Both the position numbers and the translations under genes were made by a program. Shown piece by piece: positions 44,316 to 48,905 of a DNA stretch of 64,000 bases. The DNA comes from Plantactinospora mayteni (GTDB lineage: Bacteria; Actinomycetota; Actinomycetes; Mycobacteriales; Micromonosporaceae): contig NZ_BONX01000038.1 of assembly GCF_016862935.1 (NCBI RefSeq), positions 62,001 to 126,000 on the forward strand. Direction: 5' to 3'. Within the stretch, counting starts at the first letter, position 1; each line of letters starts with the position of its first letter. A model generated the notes under the pieces. That model was not told where the DNA came from. It saw only the letters and a program-made list of their open reading frames with translations, and did not search any database.

Positions 44316-44491
44316 CTCGGATTCCTCCGTCGAGCGGGCGCGGTCGGCGCGACGGTCGGTGACGATCGGCTTGACCCGTGGTGATCAGTGCGATCGGACC
44401 ATCGGCACCGGGTAAGGCACTGATGGCGGATAGTAGCGAACTATACTGATCAATTCCATGGTGCACATTGGATGATCGCCGGCCCGCGAGT

Positions 44492-44579
44492 GAACCTTTC
44501 AACCTCCCCTTGCGGTTCGTCGGACCGCAAGGTCGGACGCGGCGTGTGAGCGCCGCGCGGTTCAGGTTGAAAAAGGTTC
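44492..44579. repeat. 88-bp palindromic element, copy A
   Basis: The outer arms GAACCTTTCAACCT and AGGTTGAAAAAGGTTC are near-complementary. An inner perfect hairpin, CTTGCGGT (44509-44516) with ACCGCAAG (44524-44531), is present. Read on the minus strand it aligns along its whole length with copy B at 46694-46783. It lies just past the stop of the response regulator gene, 9 bases from it, and upstream of the P450 promoter region. It may act as terminator, mobile palindrome or regulator site. Confidence 0.8.
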
Positions 44580-44588
44580 AGTGACCCG

Positions 44589-45233
44589 TCAGGCGTTCAG
44601 GTAGGTCAGCACGGCGAGTACCCGCCGGTTGTCGTCCTCCGACGGCGGCATGCCCAGCTTGCTGAAGATGCTGTTGATGTGCTTGCTGACCGCCTTCTCG
44701 GTGACGAAGAGCCGACCCGCGATCGCCGCGTTGGACCGGCCCTCCGCCATCAGGCCGAGCACCTCCCGCTCCCGGCTGGTGAGCGCGTGCAGCGGCTCGG
44801 CGGCGGAGCGGTTGGCCAGCAGTTCGCCGATCACCTCCGGGTCCATCACCGTGCCGCCGGCCGCCACCCGCCGCACCGCGTCGACGAACTGGCCGACGTT
44901 GGAGACCCGGTCCTTGAGCAGGTAGCCGATGGCACCGGTGCGGTCGGCCAGGAGTTCCCGGGCGTAGAGCTGCTCGACGTGCTGGGACAGGACCAGGACC
45001 GGCAGGCGGGGGATCCGGGTACGGGCCTCGATCGCCGCCTGGAGCCCCTCGTCGGTGAAGGTCGGCGGCAGCCGTACGTCGACCACGGCCACGTCGGGAC
45101 GGTGCTCGATCAGCGCCGGCAGCAGCGCCGGCCCGTTGTCGACGGCCGCGACGACCTCGAAGTCGAACGCCTGGAGTAGCCGGGTCAGTCCGTCCCTGAG
45201 GAGGGCGAGGTCTTCGGCGATGACAACTCGCAA
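44589..45233 (-). CDS. NarL/LuxR-family response regulator
   Basis: 214 residues. The receiver domain starts MRVVIAEDLALLRDGLTRLL, with the phosphoacceptor Asp in VAVVDVRLPP and the Lys in GYLLKDRVSNVG. The C-terminal HTH is LTSREREVLGLMAEGRSNAA with VSKHINSIFSKLG. It is phosphorylated by the histidine kinase encoded just upstream, whose 3' end it overlaps by 49 bases, so the two form one system. Likely targets are its own operon and the divergent MMPL transporter gene. Confidence 0.95.
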   Translation of the reverse strand: MRVVIAEDLALLRDGLTRLLQAFDFEVVAAVDNGPALLPALIEHRPDVAVVDVRLPPTFTDEGLQAAIEARTRIPRLPVLVLSQHVEQLYARELLADRTGAIGYLLKDRVSNVGQFVDAVRRVAAGGTVMDPEVIGELLANRSAAEPLHALTSREREVLGLMAEGRSNAAIAGRLFVTEKAVSKHINSIFSKLGMPPSEDDNRRVLAVLTYLNA

Positions 45234-46486
45234 GGCAGCTCCATGGTCACGGTCGTGGGCCCGCCGGGCGGGCTGGCCACGAACATCGTGCCATCAAAGG
45301 CGGCGAGCCGTCGTTCGATCCCCCGCAGACCGGTCCCGCCGGCCGGGTCGGCTCCACCGACGCCGTCGTCGCCGACCACCATGACCAGCCGACCGTCGCC
45401 GTGCCGCAGCCGTATCCAGGCGTTGCGCGCGGCGCTGTGCTTGGCGACGTTGGCCAGCAGTTCGGCCGCGGTGAAGTAGACCGCCGACTCGACCGGGGCC
45501 AGCGGCCGGCCGGGCAGCTCGACGTCGACCTCGACCGGCAGTGGCAGCTTCAGCGCGAGTGCCTGGAGCGCACCGGCCAGCCCACGTTCGGCGAGTACCG
45601 GTGGATGGATGCCCCGGACCAGGTCCCGCAGCTCGCCGAGGGCCTGCCCGCTGGCCTCCCGGGCCTCGGCCATCAGCCGCTGGGCCGCCTCCGGGTCCCG
45701 GCGCATCAGCTCCTCGGCGAGCCCGATGTTCATGCTCAGCGCCACCAGCCGGGCCTGGGCACCGTCGTGCAGGTCGCGCTCGATCCGGCGCAGCTCGGCG
45801 GCCTGCGCGTCGACGGTCTGCGACCGGGTCTCGGTGAGCTGCTGGACCCGCTGGTGCAGCGCCGCCGTCGGGGTCGGCGCCAGCAGCGCCCGGATGAAGC
45901 CGGCGTGCATCCGGTGGATCAGCTCGCCGGTGTAGGCGCCGAAGATCAGGATCAGGGCACCCTGCGGCGGCCCCAGCAGCGCCTTGACCGCGTTGTCGAT
46001 CGGCCAGAACACTCCGTAGCCGTACCAGACGTCGAGCGTCCAGAGCAGCACCGGTACCCCGATCAGCCCCTCCAGGCCGTAGACCACCAGGCAGACCGGC
46101 AGCAGCCCGAGTACCAGCCCGACCGGTATCGACGTCAGCAGCCAGAGCAGGTCGCGCCAGGTGGCCGGGTCGGTCACCACCCACCGGTACCGGCCCCAGA
46201 CGGTCATCCGCTCCGGCGCCGGCCGGTACGGGCTCGGCACCTCCCGTTCGGTCCACCACCCCGCGAACCGGCGGTTGAGGTCGGCGAGTTCGCGTACCGC
46301 GGCGGTCACCGCCGGAAAGGCGAACAGCCCCGCGCCCAGCACGGTGAAGACGAGGGAGAGCACCGAGAGCACCAGCAGGACGATGTTGGCGCTCACCGAG
46401 AGTACGGCCAGCAGCAGCGCCTGGCCGCCCTGGGCGAGCCGGCGCCGCAGCCACGGTGGGAGCCGGTTGGTGGTCGGGTGGTCCAT
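45185..46486 (-). CDS. Sensor histidine kinase (NarL-system type)
   Basis: 433 residues. The N-terminal half has about four to six membrane helices in pairs (VLSVSANIVLLVLSVLSLVF, then LLWLLTSIPVGLVLGLLPVC) and short loops, with no large outside domain, so it probably senses the membrane itself. A linker coiled coil precedes the HisKA_3 motif ERDLHDGAQARLVALS (phospho-His). The HATPase_c domain follows, with AVYFTAAELLANVAKHSA, VVGDDGVGGAD and TGLRGIERRL. The ATG at 46486 is 190 bases from the divergent MMPL start. Paired with the overlapping response regulator. Confidence 0.93.
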   Translation of the reverse strand: MDHPTTNRLPPWLRRRLAQGGQALLLAVLSVSANIVLLVLSVLSLVFTVLGAGLFAFPAVTAAVRELADLNRRFAGWWTEREVPSPYRPAPERMTVWGRYRWVVTDPATWRDLLWLLTSIPVGLVLGLLPVCLVVYGLEGLIGVPVLLWTLDVWYGYGVFWPIDNAVKALLGPPQGALILIFGAYTGELIHRMHAGFIRALLAPTPTAALHQRVQQLTETRSQTVDAQAAELRRIERDLHDGAQARLVALSMNIGLAEELMRRDPEAAQRLMAEAREASGQALGELRDLVRGIHPPVLAERGLAGALQALALKLPLPVEVDVELPGRPLAPVESAVYFTAAELLANVAKHSAARNAWIRLRHGDGRLVMVVGDDGVGGADPAGGTGLRGIERRLAAFDGTMFVASPPGGPTTVTMELPCELSSPKTSPSSGTD

Positions 46487-46676
46487 GCACCCATTCTGGT
46501 CGACCCGCCCGGCGTCGATCTGTGGTGCTACGACCACCGTCGTTCGGGACGTGCCACCCCTGCCGGTGGCCCCGCCAGCCCGTTGGATCGATGGCATGAC
46601 CGATCCGGGCCGGATGCCCGCAGCGACGCCTGCCGGTCGAACCGACAGCCCTACCAGGTTCCGGGAGGAACACGTC

Positions 46677-48905
46677 ATGTCCAGGCATCGATCGAACCTT
46701 TTTCCACCTGAACCGCCCGGCGCTCGCGCCCCGCGTTCGACCTCCCCGACCACCGGACCGCAACGGGAGGTGGAAAAGGGTTCGTTGGCCGGCGTCGTCG
46801 CCGGCCGGCGCGCCAAGTTCGCGATGCTGGCCCTCTGGGTGGTCGTCGCCGCGGTGGTCGGCCCGCTCGCGCTCAAGCTGACCGAGGTACAGCAGAACGA
46901 CAATCTCGGCGCCCTGCCCGGCGGCGCCGAGGCGAGCCGGGCGGCCGTCCGGGCCGAGGCCGCGTTTCCCGAGCCGGACGCGCTGGTCGCGGTCACCGTG
47001 TACGCCCGGGACGCCGGCCTGACCGACGCCGACCGGGCCAGGGTCGCCGCCGACCGGGCGGCGTTCGCCAGGTACGCGGTCGACGGGGTCGTCCCGCCGG
47101 AGCTGCCCAGCGACGACGGCCGGGCTCTGCTGCTCTCCTTCCCGCTCGCCGGCACCGACGAGGCGCAGTCGGCGGCGGTCGGCGAGATCCGGGACCGGCT
47201 GGCCGACGGACTGCCGGACGGGCTGCGTACCGCGCTGACCGGGTCGGCGGGGGCCGAGGAGGACCTCTTCGACGCGTTCGGCGGGATGGACCACATGCTG
47301 CTGTTCGCCACGATCGGCGCGGTGGCCCTGCTGTTGCTGGTCACCTACCGCAGCCCGGTGCTCTGGTTGATCCCGCTGATCACCGCCGGGGTGGCGAGTC
47401 AGGTGGCCAGCGCGGTCGTCTACCTGCTCGCCGAGTACGCCGGGCTCACCGTCGACTTCCAGAGCCAGAACATCCTGACCGTACTGGTCCTCGGCGTCGG
47501 GGTGGACTACGCGCTGCTGATCGTCGCCCGCTACCGGGAGGAGCTGCGGCGGCACCAGGACCGGCACGAGGCGATGGCGCTGGCCCTGCGCCGCTCCTTC
47601 CCGGCGATGTGCGCCTCGGCCGCCACGGTCGCCGCCGGGCTGCTCTGCCTGCTCGCCGCCGACCTGCCGTCGACCCGGGGTCTCGGCCCGGTCGGCGCGG
47701 TCGGGATCGCCGCCACCCTGGTCGCGATGGCCACCCTGTTGCCGGCGGTACTGGTGCTCTTCGGCCGCTGGGTGTTCTGGCCGTTCGTGCCGCGTTACAC
47801 CCCCGGCCTGGCCGGGCACGACGTCGCCGAGGACCACCGTGGCTGGGCCCGGGTGGCCCGGTTCGTCGACCGGCGGCACAGGACCACCTGGATCGGCAGC
47901 ATTCTGGCGCTCGGGGTGCTCATGCTCGGGATCGGCAACCTCAGCATCGGCCTGCCCGGCGACGAGTTCTTCACGAAGGAGGTCGGCTCGGTCACCGGTC
48001 AGCGGATGGTCGAGGCGCACTGGCCGGCCGGCACGCTGGCACCGGCGGAGATCGTGGCCGGCGCGGGCAGTGCCGACCAGGTGGTCCAGGCGGCCCGGGG
48101 CGTCGACGGGATCGCCGAGGTCGGCCCGGCGGAGCGCTCCGCCGACGGCCGCTGGGTACGGATCCCGGCGATACTCGCCGACGACCCGGGTACCGAGGCG
48201 GCGAAGGAGAGCGTCGACCGGCTGCGTACGGCGCTGCGGGCGGTGCCCGGGGCCGACGCGCTGGTCGGCGGCGAGACGGCGTACCAGTTGGACACCGATC
48301 GGGTCACCAGCCGGGACGACCGGGTGGTGATGCCGCTGATCCTGCTCGTCGTCTTCCTCGTGCTGGTGGTGCTGCTCCGGGCCCTGGTCGCGCCGCTGCT
48401 GCTGATGGCCAGCGTGGTGCTGTCGTACCTCGCCGCGCTGGGTGCGGCCGGGCTGATCCTCGACGCGCTGGGCCACCCGAGGCTCTGGGTGGCGCTGCCG
48501 TTGCAGACGTTCCTGTTCCTGGTCGCGCTGGGCGTGGACTACACCATCTTCCTGATGACCCGGGCCCGGGAGGAGGTCGCCGTGCTCGGGCACCGGCGGG
48601 GCGTACTGCACGCGCTCACGGTCACCGGGGGAGTGATCACCAGCGCCGGGGTGGTGCTGGCGACCACGTTCGCCGCGTTGAGCGTGATGCCGCTGGTGCC
48701 CTCGGTGCAGACCGGGGTGATCGTGGCGGTCGGCGTACTCATCGACACGTTCCTGGTGCGTAGCCTGCTGGTCCCGGCGCTGGCGCTCTCGGTCGGACCC
48801 GCCACCTGGTGGCCGGGCCGGCTCTCCCGGCGCCCGGCCGCGCCGCCCGCGCCGGGCACGCCGGCACCGGTCGGTCCCGCCCCGGCGGCCGTGGCGTCGC
48901 GCTGA
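46677..48905 (+). CDS. MMPL/RND-family transporter
   Basis: 742 residues from an ATG behind GGGAGGAA. There are two homologous halves, each with one helix, a large outside loop, and five further helices. Family motifs are visible: NILTVLVLGVGVDYALLIVA in the first half and LFLVALGVDYTIFLMTRARE in the second, each with the conserved GVDY proton-relay Asp-Tyr. MmpL proteins export lipids, glycolipids or drugs by proton motive force. The first 35 residues (SNLFPPEPPGARAPRSTSP onward) are encoded by palindromic element copy B and are unlike the family. Its control by the divergent two-component system is likely. Confidence 0.93.
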   Translation: MSRHRSNLFPPEPPGARAPRSTSPTTGPQREVEKGSLAGVVAGRRAKFAMLALWVVVAAVVGPLALKLTEVQQNDNLGALPGGAEASRAAVRAEAAFPEPDALVAVTVYARDAGLTDADRARVAADRAAFARYAVDGVVPPELPSDDGRALLLSFPLAGTDEAQSAAVGEIRDRLADGLPDGLRTALTGSAGAEEDLFDAFGGMDHMLLFATIGAVALLLLVTYRSPVLWLIPLITAGVASQVASAVVYLLAEYAGLTVDFQSQNILTVLVLGVGVDYALLIVARYREELRRHQDRHEAMALALRRSFPAMCASAATVAAGLLCLLAADLPSTRGLGPVGAVGIAATLVAMATLLPAVLVLFGRWVFWPFVPRYTPGLAGHDVAEDHRGWARVARFVDRRHRTTWIGSILALGVLMLGIGNLSIGLPGDEFFTKEVGSVTGQRMVEAHWPAGTLAPAEIVAGAGSADQVVQAARGVDGIAEVGPAERSADGRWVRIPAILADDPGTEAAKESVDRLRTALRAVPGADALVGGETAYQLDTDRVTSRDDRVVMPLILLVVFLVLVVLLRALVAPLLLMASVVLSYLAALGAAGLILDALGHPRLWVALPLQTFLFLVALGVDYTIFLMTRAREEVAVLGHRRGVLHALTVTGGVITSAGVVLATTFAALSVMPLVPSVQTGVIVAVGVLIDTFLVRSLLVPALALSVGPATWWPGRLSRRPAAPPAPGTPAPVGPAPAAVASR
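46694..46783. repeat. 90-bp palindromic element, copy B, within MMPL coding sequence
   Basis: Arms GAACCTTTTTCCACCT and AGGTGGAAAAGGGTTC are complementary except for one pair. The interior matches the minus strand of copy A, sharing TGAACCGC, CGGCGCTC, CCGCGT-CGACC and GCAA-G-GGAGGT blocks. It starts 17 bases after the MMPL start codon, so it could form a hairpin early in the mRNA. Confidence 0.8.

Follow-up and report, generated by a model that had tools for sequence, protein, structure and literature searches.

A dispersed 90-bp palindromic element of Plantactinospora mayteni found at gene boundaries and in frame within genes

Introduction

The closest precedents for the element analysed here, as far as the available portions of their descriptions go, are short repeats of other bacteria. 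Rickettsia palindromic elements are short palindromes found in frame within unrelated protein genes (PMC10969869, PMC2229807), and RUP, a repeat of 107 bp, was found 108 times (PMC2229807). MITEAba12, a miniature inverted-repeat transposable element (MITE) of 111–114 bp, has terminal repeats and target duplications that tie it to an insertion sequence (IS; PMC6382973). In-frame fusion is also already known for other bacterial MITEs (PMC2229807, PMC10969869). The present analysis concerns two related palindromes, copy A and copy B, in a 64,000-nucleotide stretch of Plantactinospora mayteni (contig NZ_BONX01000038.1, positions 62,001 to 126,000; the whole stretch is referred to as the window). 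A and B are members of one dispersed, non-autonomous MITE family of about 100 copies. A mobile palindrome of this kind had been one of three options raised in a preliminary description of the window, and it is now strongly supported because of the copy number, the terminal repeats, the target duplications and the exact empty sites found in related genomes.

Family in the genome

Copy A (44492..44579, minus strand) is 88 bp long, with one arm short of two T, and is flanked on both sides by the target-site duplication (TSD) AGT (44489..44491 and 44580..44582), as read from the sequence. Copy B (46694..46783, plus strand) is 90 bp long and lies between ATC (46691..46693) and GTT (46784..46786). 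The preliminary description had placed two imperfect palindromes here and had aligned the minus strand of A with the plus strand of B, in equal orientation to transcription. Both points were borne out: minus for A and plus for B correspond to a single strand of the family, S, and transcription runs along S in both. S reads GAACCTTTTTCNACCTGAACCGCGCGGCGC...CCGCAAGGGGAGGTTGAAAAAGGTTC and comprises two inner hairpins between terminal repeats of 16 bp. The arm pattern GAACCTTTTTCNACCT, allowing up to three mismatches, has three sites in the window, all within A and B, compared to a mean of 0.09 for shuffles, none of which (0/100) reached three.

The genome of the window (G000) is a 9.84-Mb draft in 123 contigs. 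A search with A gave at least 43 matches in it (40 of 173 candidates scored) and a search with B at least 41 (40 of 180 scored). Among the 40 candidates scored in each case, A matches 39 other genomic places at 86–98% identity across most of its length, and the closest copies of B are 91% and 89% identical. With at most one mismatch, GAACCTTTTTCNACCT has 90 + 90 matches in the whole genome, and the asymmetric end pattern, with at most three, has 112 (54 + 58); the reversed control patterns have none. Of the end-pattern matches, 100 of 112 were listed, and the remainder were retrieved only where another search gave them. After flank retrieval, 112 unique matches were delimited and three weak or fragmentary ones were dropped, which left 109 copies for analysis; one further copy, in an ftsR-like gene (L274, see below), is outside this set. 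Exactly 90 bp is the length of 74 of the 109, and the 72 distinct 90-bp sequences divide into 48 and 24 by the nearer of two references that we chose.

The flanks of the copies define a target of the form C-ANT-G. Among the 109, the first position is A in 94 on the left and 99 on the right, the third is T in 95 and 88, C precedes the triplet in 81, and G follows it in 71. The middle base is the same on both sides in 99 copies (29.2 expected from random pairing), and the duplication is an exact 3-bp repeat in 63 (16.7 expected), whereas other lengths were found in 0 or 1 of the 109. The family is short and multi-copy, with terminal inverted repeats, a TSD of constant length (3 bp) and no transposase gene, all of which are features of a MITE.

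At one locus two copies are adjacent (L011, 1504–1696), and the outer flanks of the pair lie about 142 kb apart on one contig of P. endophytica (L221, L228), which suggests rearrangement at the repeats.

Empty sites and in-frame fusions

Empty sites were sought in six other genomes of the genus (G001–G006). B lies in frame within a gene for an MMPL transporter (46677..48905, plus strand; PF03176, 386.2 bits, the start codon being left out of the search). Its first base is 17 bp past the first base of the ATG at 46677, as the preliminary description had noted, and the approximately 30 extra residues reported there were counted as 31, which follow MSRHR and correspond to 90 bp plus the 3-bp duplication. 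Close MMPL orthologues (68–85% identical) are present in G001, G002, G003 and G005; G004 and G006, where the best matches are only 44% and 43% identical, were excluded for B. All four orthologues lack the 93 bp with the flanking codons intact, and their initial MSRHR or MSRHG runs straight into LAGV or MVGI. The empty site in G001 and G002 reads CGATTGGCC, and the original target of B was therefore inferred to be ATT, one change from each present side. These data point to B as a 93-bp in-frame insertion that adds 31 residues to the predicted MMPL N-terminus, including the insert-derived stretch NLFPPEPPGARAP. A is also missing at the same place in these four genomes, where the intergenic DNA is too diverged for an exact junction.

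Three other loci have precise empty sites, which, like that of B, are a recognized mark of a MITE. First, at L092 (1435–1524) the copy sits exactly at the overlap of a kinase gene and a regulator gene. The full 440 bases of the empty junction could be aligned with all six relatives (85–93% identical), and in each of them the kinase stop and the NTG at the expected start of the regulator overlap as NTGA. In G000 the downstream triplet is now ACT, giving CTG, at which the regulator now appears to begin. Second, at L036 (1511–1600) a zinc alcohol dehydrogenase (ADH_N, ADH_zinc_N) carries a 31-residue in-frame insert inside the ADH_zinc_N domain, which is missing from G004, G003 and G001 in end-to-end alignments of 440 bases and also from G002, where an unrelated difference of 18 bases lies close by. 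Third, an ftsR-like MerR gene (MerR_1) has an old copy that joins a leader in frame to MSIGEV in G000, G002 and G004 (L274, L273 and L276, near position 1498 on the reverse strand) and is missing from G001, G003, G005 and G006, so that three of seven genomes are filled and four are empty. In G000, 21 bp have been deleted without loss of the frame. The proportions of synonymous and nonsynonymous differences (pS/pN) inside this copy are 0.275/0.119, 0.268/0.056 and 0.375/0.094 for three non-independent pairs with small counts, and changes within it thus seem to lean synonymous.

The preliminary description had held a mobile origin to be unlikely if the consensus were absent elsewhere in the genome and the MMPL N-terminus were conserved in relatives. 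The search of the genome and its relatives gave the opposite on both counts, with a dispersed family and four orthologous N-termini that lack the insert, and the mobile origin stands.

When about 0.72 Mb of G002 was tiled, few clear orthologous sites were found (A, B, L024, L011). At L024 (1504–1593; G002:C15:9886–9975) a copy is common to both species at the same place and with the same 3-bp duplication, its flanks being 92% and 95% identical over 400 bases.

Relatives and IS5-type elements

The exact terminal-repeat pair occurs in three of 250 genomes of the family Micromonosporaceae (40 in G000, 4 in G002, 1 in G113); its named matches are four stretches, all of P. endophytica NBRC 110450. 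BLAST searches of eight genomes with the consensus found matches in six, namely G000 (at least 52, with 40 of 199 candidates scored), G002 (19), G004 (10), G005 (6), G006 (4) and G113 (3), and none in G001 and G003. In plasmid and phage collections the consensus had zero matches at E 1e-5. G113, which belongs to another genus of the family, also holds a 90-bp element whose ends are the same but whose interior has diverged (79% identity to the consensus; G113:C1:4397131–4397220, L180).

Candidates for the source of the transposase were sought among matches to PF13359, of which there are five in G000, six in G002 and nine in G113. Three elements of G113 (L192, L195 and L198) are 923–925 bp long and have GAGCCATTTTCATCG-type ends with the duplications ACT, ATT and AGT; a fourth (L201) has similar ends and unequal flanks. 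In P. endophytica (G002), the left end of L193 differs from that of the MITE by three mismatches; the two ends of L202 differ by three and four, and its flanks are unequal. On the Streptomyces plasmid pSALBX2, an element annotated 'IS5 family transposase' (L289) begins GAGCCCTTTCCAACCT (three mismatches), ends with six mismatches and has ACT on both sides, and a plasmid element annotated 'IS5/IS1182 family transposase' (L287) has ends four and two mismatches from those of the MITE, with unequal flanks. Such ends were not seen at the plasmid matches L288, L290 and L291. The transposase of L192 scores 122.3 bits with NCBIfam NF033581, below the cut-off of 140, and passes PF13359 and PF13613.

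An ANT duplication is thus present both in the MITE and in the IS copies L192, L195, L198 and L289. We take the IS5-type elements with PF13359 and PF13613 to be the ISL2-like group, of which the ANT duplication is presumably typical. The MITE is filed as IS5-related and not as an IS, because there is no transposase gene in its 90 bp. Overall, this is a well-supported new MITE family that is probably related to IS5-type elements.

Placement at gene boundaries

Genes around the copies were called with a home-made codon-usage finder trained on nine genes of the window (3317 codons). The context test included 107 copies, as two of the 109 had flanks too short. The null set consisted of 343 further CANTG sites from this DNA, taken in both orientations (686), of which 7/343 are repeats from overlapping loci. 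Start and stop classes were scored on reconstructed empty sites, and the present-day codons were read separately.

The copies are mostly outside genes and are enriched at gene boundaries. Only 17 of the 107 (15.9%, including B and L036) lie inside a called gene, compared to 68.2% of control sites; a cruder earlier scan with 150-bp flanks had found 2/109 intragenic. The target coincides with a called stop in 13 copies at the 5′ end of S and in four at the other end (null 1/686 each), and with a start codon in 12 copies at the 3′ end of S and in one at the 5′ end (null 9/686 each). All 17 stops are now TGA, composed of the T of the TSD and GA of the element, while the reconstructed empty sites have 15 TGA and two TAG. 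At four copies (L022, L092, L018 and L105) a stop on one side is paired with a start on the opposite side. On this reading of the junctions, a gene that receives an insertion can have its stop or start restored by the ends of the element. Within about 30 bp, gene 3′ ends are found upstream of 28 copies and downstream of 14 (null 6/686 each), and gene 5′ ends downstream of 15 and upstream of five (null 20/686 each); the orientation asymmetry of the neighbouring gene ends has a Fisher p of 0.0028.

The same enrichment might owe little to selection if the transposase preferred gene 3′ ends or termination regions as targets. The 28 upstream and 14 downstream 3′ ends exceed what avoidance of coding DNA would give, and this explanation is a serious possibility, if on the whole a doubtful one. 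Against it are the in-frame survivors within genes (B, L036 and the ftsR-like fusion) and the extended target, which has no clear base preference beyond C-ANT-G except a mild one for T before the C.

Codon phase and the proposed mechanism

The outcome of insertion differs with codon phase when S runs along transcription. The phase T-GA gives an immediate stop; the phase NTG-AAC-CTT meets no stop before the far end in 76 of the 78 copies with a length divisible by three; and the phase ANT-GAA gives EPFST and then a stop in the consensus. All three fusions (MMPL, zinc alcohol dehydrogenase and ftsR-like) are in the open NTG phase.

These observations can be joined in one explanation, which we consider highly likely as a whole. 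The family is a non-autonomous MITE, which an IS5-type (PF13359) transposase would have moved. On the consensus S strand, where a codon begins with the T of ANT, this T and the terminal GA would form TGA at once, so that a gene ending in ...ANTGA keeps its stop. A start codon within ANTG would be kept by the second copy of the triplet. In the NTG phase the strand would stay open and the 93 bp would add 31 residues, as in B, and in the third phase translation would stop after five element codons. Because the effect depends on codon phase, insertions at junctions and in frame would tend to survive, and those that break genes would probably be lost.

A further step, in which the element acts as a phase-sensing cassette for gene boundaries, is put forward tentatively, at a little short of an even chance. 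Such a cassette would part two genes whose stop and start overlap as NTGA, set a spacer of 93 bp between them and cut their translational coupling, as perhaps at L092, would add a 31-residue linker in the NTG phase, and might in some copies have become domesticated, as in the ftsR-like fusion of three species.

Several points weigh against the explanation as a whole. First, the duplications are exact in only 63 of the 109 copies, and their first and third positions agree as composition predicts (88 vs 86.3 and 80 vs 79.1). Second, the search of the draft G000 revealed no autonomous element whose ends match, and no such end pair was seen in the retrieved flanks of its five PF13359 matches; the mover is therefore absent, lost or hidden at contig ends. 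The IS ends that were compared differ from those of the MITE at 2–6 of 16 bases, and the related IS copies L201, L202 and L287 have unequal ANT flanks. Third, the gene calls come from a simple home-made finder, so that the contrasts are large and single calls uncertain, and 42 of the 107 copies fall in no boundary or gene class (control 24.8%). Fourth, the healing of starts is imperfect: ten of the 12 remain ATG, GTG or TTG, but L092 now has CTG and L141 has CCG. Finally, L092 is the only copy for which the rebuilt stop was compared with relatives, and the stop-start junction of L022 has no orthologous junction in any genome of the genus.

For B itself, it might be argued that the element supplies a new start, the TTG after GGGAGGTGGAAAAGGGTTCG, and that the insert is a 5′ leader, with the protein not extended. 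A GGGGAGG-type purine run is present at the 3′ end of S, the end that carries the start in 12 of the 13 copies with a start at the target. We regard this as unlikely, as the original ATG and the upstream GGAGG are kept in four relatives, the frame of B is uninterrupted, GGGAGG is rather far from TTG (about 14 bases), and the ftsR-like frame is kept in three species despite the 21-bp deletion in one. The purine run as a ribosome-binding site was set aside for its poor spacing, and is retained only as a possible reason for the orientation bias.

The third alternative is that A and B are RNA hairpins (attenuator, terminator or stability element) common to both transcripts and kept for regulation, as the preliminary description had proposed. 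The folds it called for are indeed predicted to be very stable on both strands of A, B and two subfamily consensuses (–41.4 to –59.6 kcal/mol), and S is mostly co-oriented with near genes (28 upstream ends and 15 downstream starts vs 14 downstream ends and five upstream starts). However, pairing in 48 copies of subfamily I is barely above that of shuffled columns, and covariation is weaker than is expected of a conserved regulatory RNA: the inner pairs score 841 of 960 cells compared to a shuffle mean of 836.8 (reached by 42/500 shuffles), the outer pairs 726 of 768 compared to 723.0 (58/500), and only eight two-sided changes occur in the 960 cells. The pairing pattern may be read as decay after insertion and not as a maintained RNA. 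Since A and B are also independent insertions, missing from four relatives, a shared regulatory role is very improbable; what survives of the proposal is a strong predicted fold with a possible side effect, and local effects on expression through spacing, coupling or hairpins are plausible.

Between A and B lie, on the minus strand, a gene for a LuxR-type response regulator (44589..45233; PF00072 and PF00196), the stop of which, at 44589, is 9 bp from A, as noted earlier, and a gene for a sensor histidine kinase (45185..46486; PF13796, PF07730 and PF02518). The suggestion that A and B are binding sites for this regulator has their position in its favour and can practically be dismissed, as the 109 copies analysed adjoin many unrelated genes throughout the genome and four relatives have the regulator in their orthologous systems but lack the element.

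Significance and comparison with known systems

A mobile MITE of this kind suggests how an element can reach about 100 copies in a gene-dense genome with little damage, because two terminal bases and the 3-bp duplication would rebuild stops and often starts, and the one open frame would serve as a protein linker. L092, where an overlap intact in six relatives is separated in one species, offers a natural experiment on translational coupling, and the in-frame fusions allow the tolerance and retention of random inserts by proteins to be studied in nature. In literature searches of partial coverage, no account was found of this family or of a MITE that rebuilds stop and start codons.

Compared to described elements, as far as the available parts of the sources allow, the family shares some features with each and differs in others. 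First, like the IS5-type IS with PF13359 and PF13613, it has ANT duplications and GAGCC-TTTTC-type ends, as in pSALBX2 (L289) and G113 (L192, L195 and L198), with a similar left end at L193; unlike them it has no gene, and an element with its exact ends was not found. Second, it resembles RUP, Correia/NEMIS and ERIC-type MITEs as a palindromic repeat in a size range of about 100–200 bp (PMC2229807), but those have TA termini in the table of that source, whereas here ANT is the target at C-ANT-G and TGA and NTG are rebuilt. Third, MITEAba12 has 9-bp duplications and stops in all six frames (PMC6382973), in contrast to 3-bp duplications and one open frame per strand in the present MITE. Fourth, like Rickettsia palindromic elements, the MITE is found in frame in three predicted protein genes (MMPL, zinc alcohol dehydrogenase and ftsR-like), while only 17/107 copies lie in a called gene here and the 3-bp ANT duplications are clear, a separation made by description and not by sequence. 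Phase-dependent healing of stops and starts, together with one-sided placement at starts, sets the family apart.

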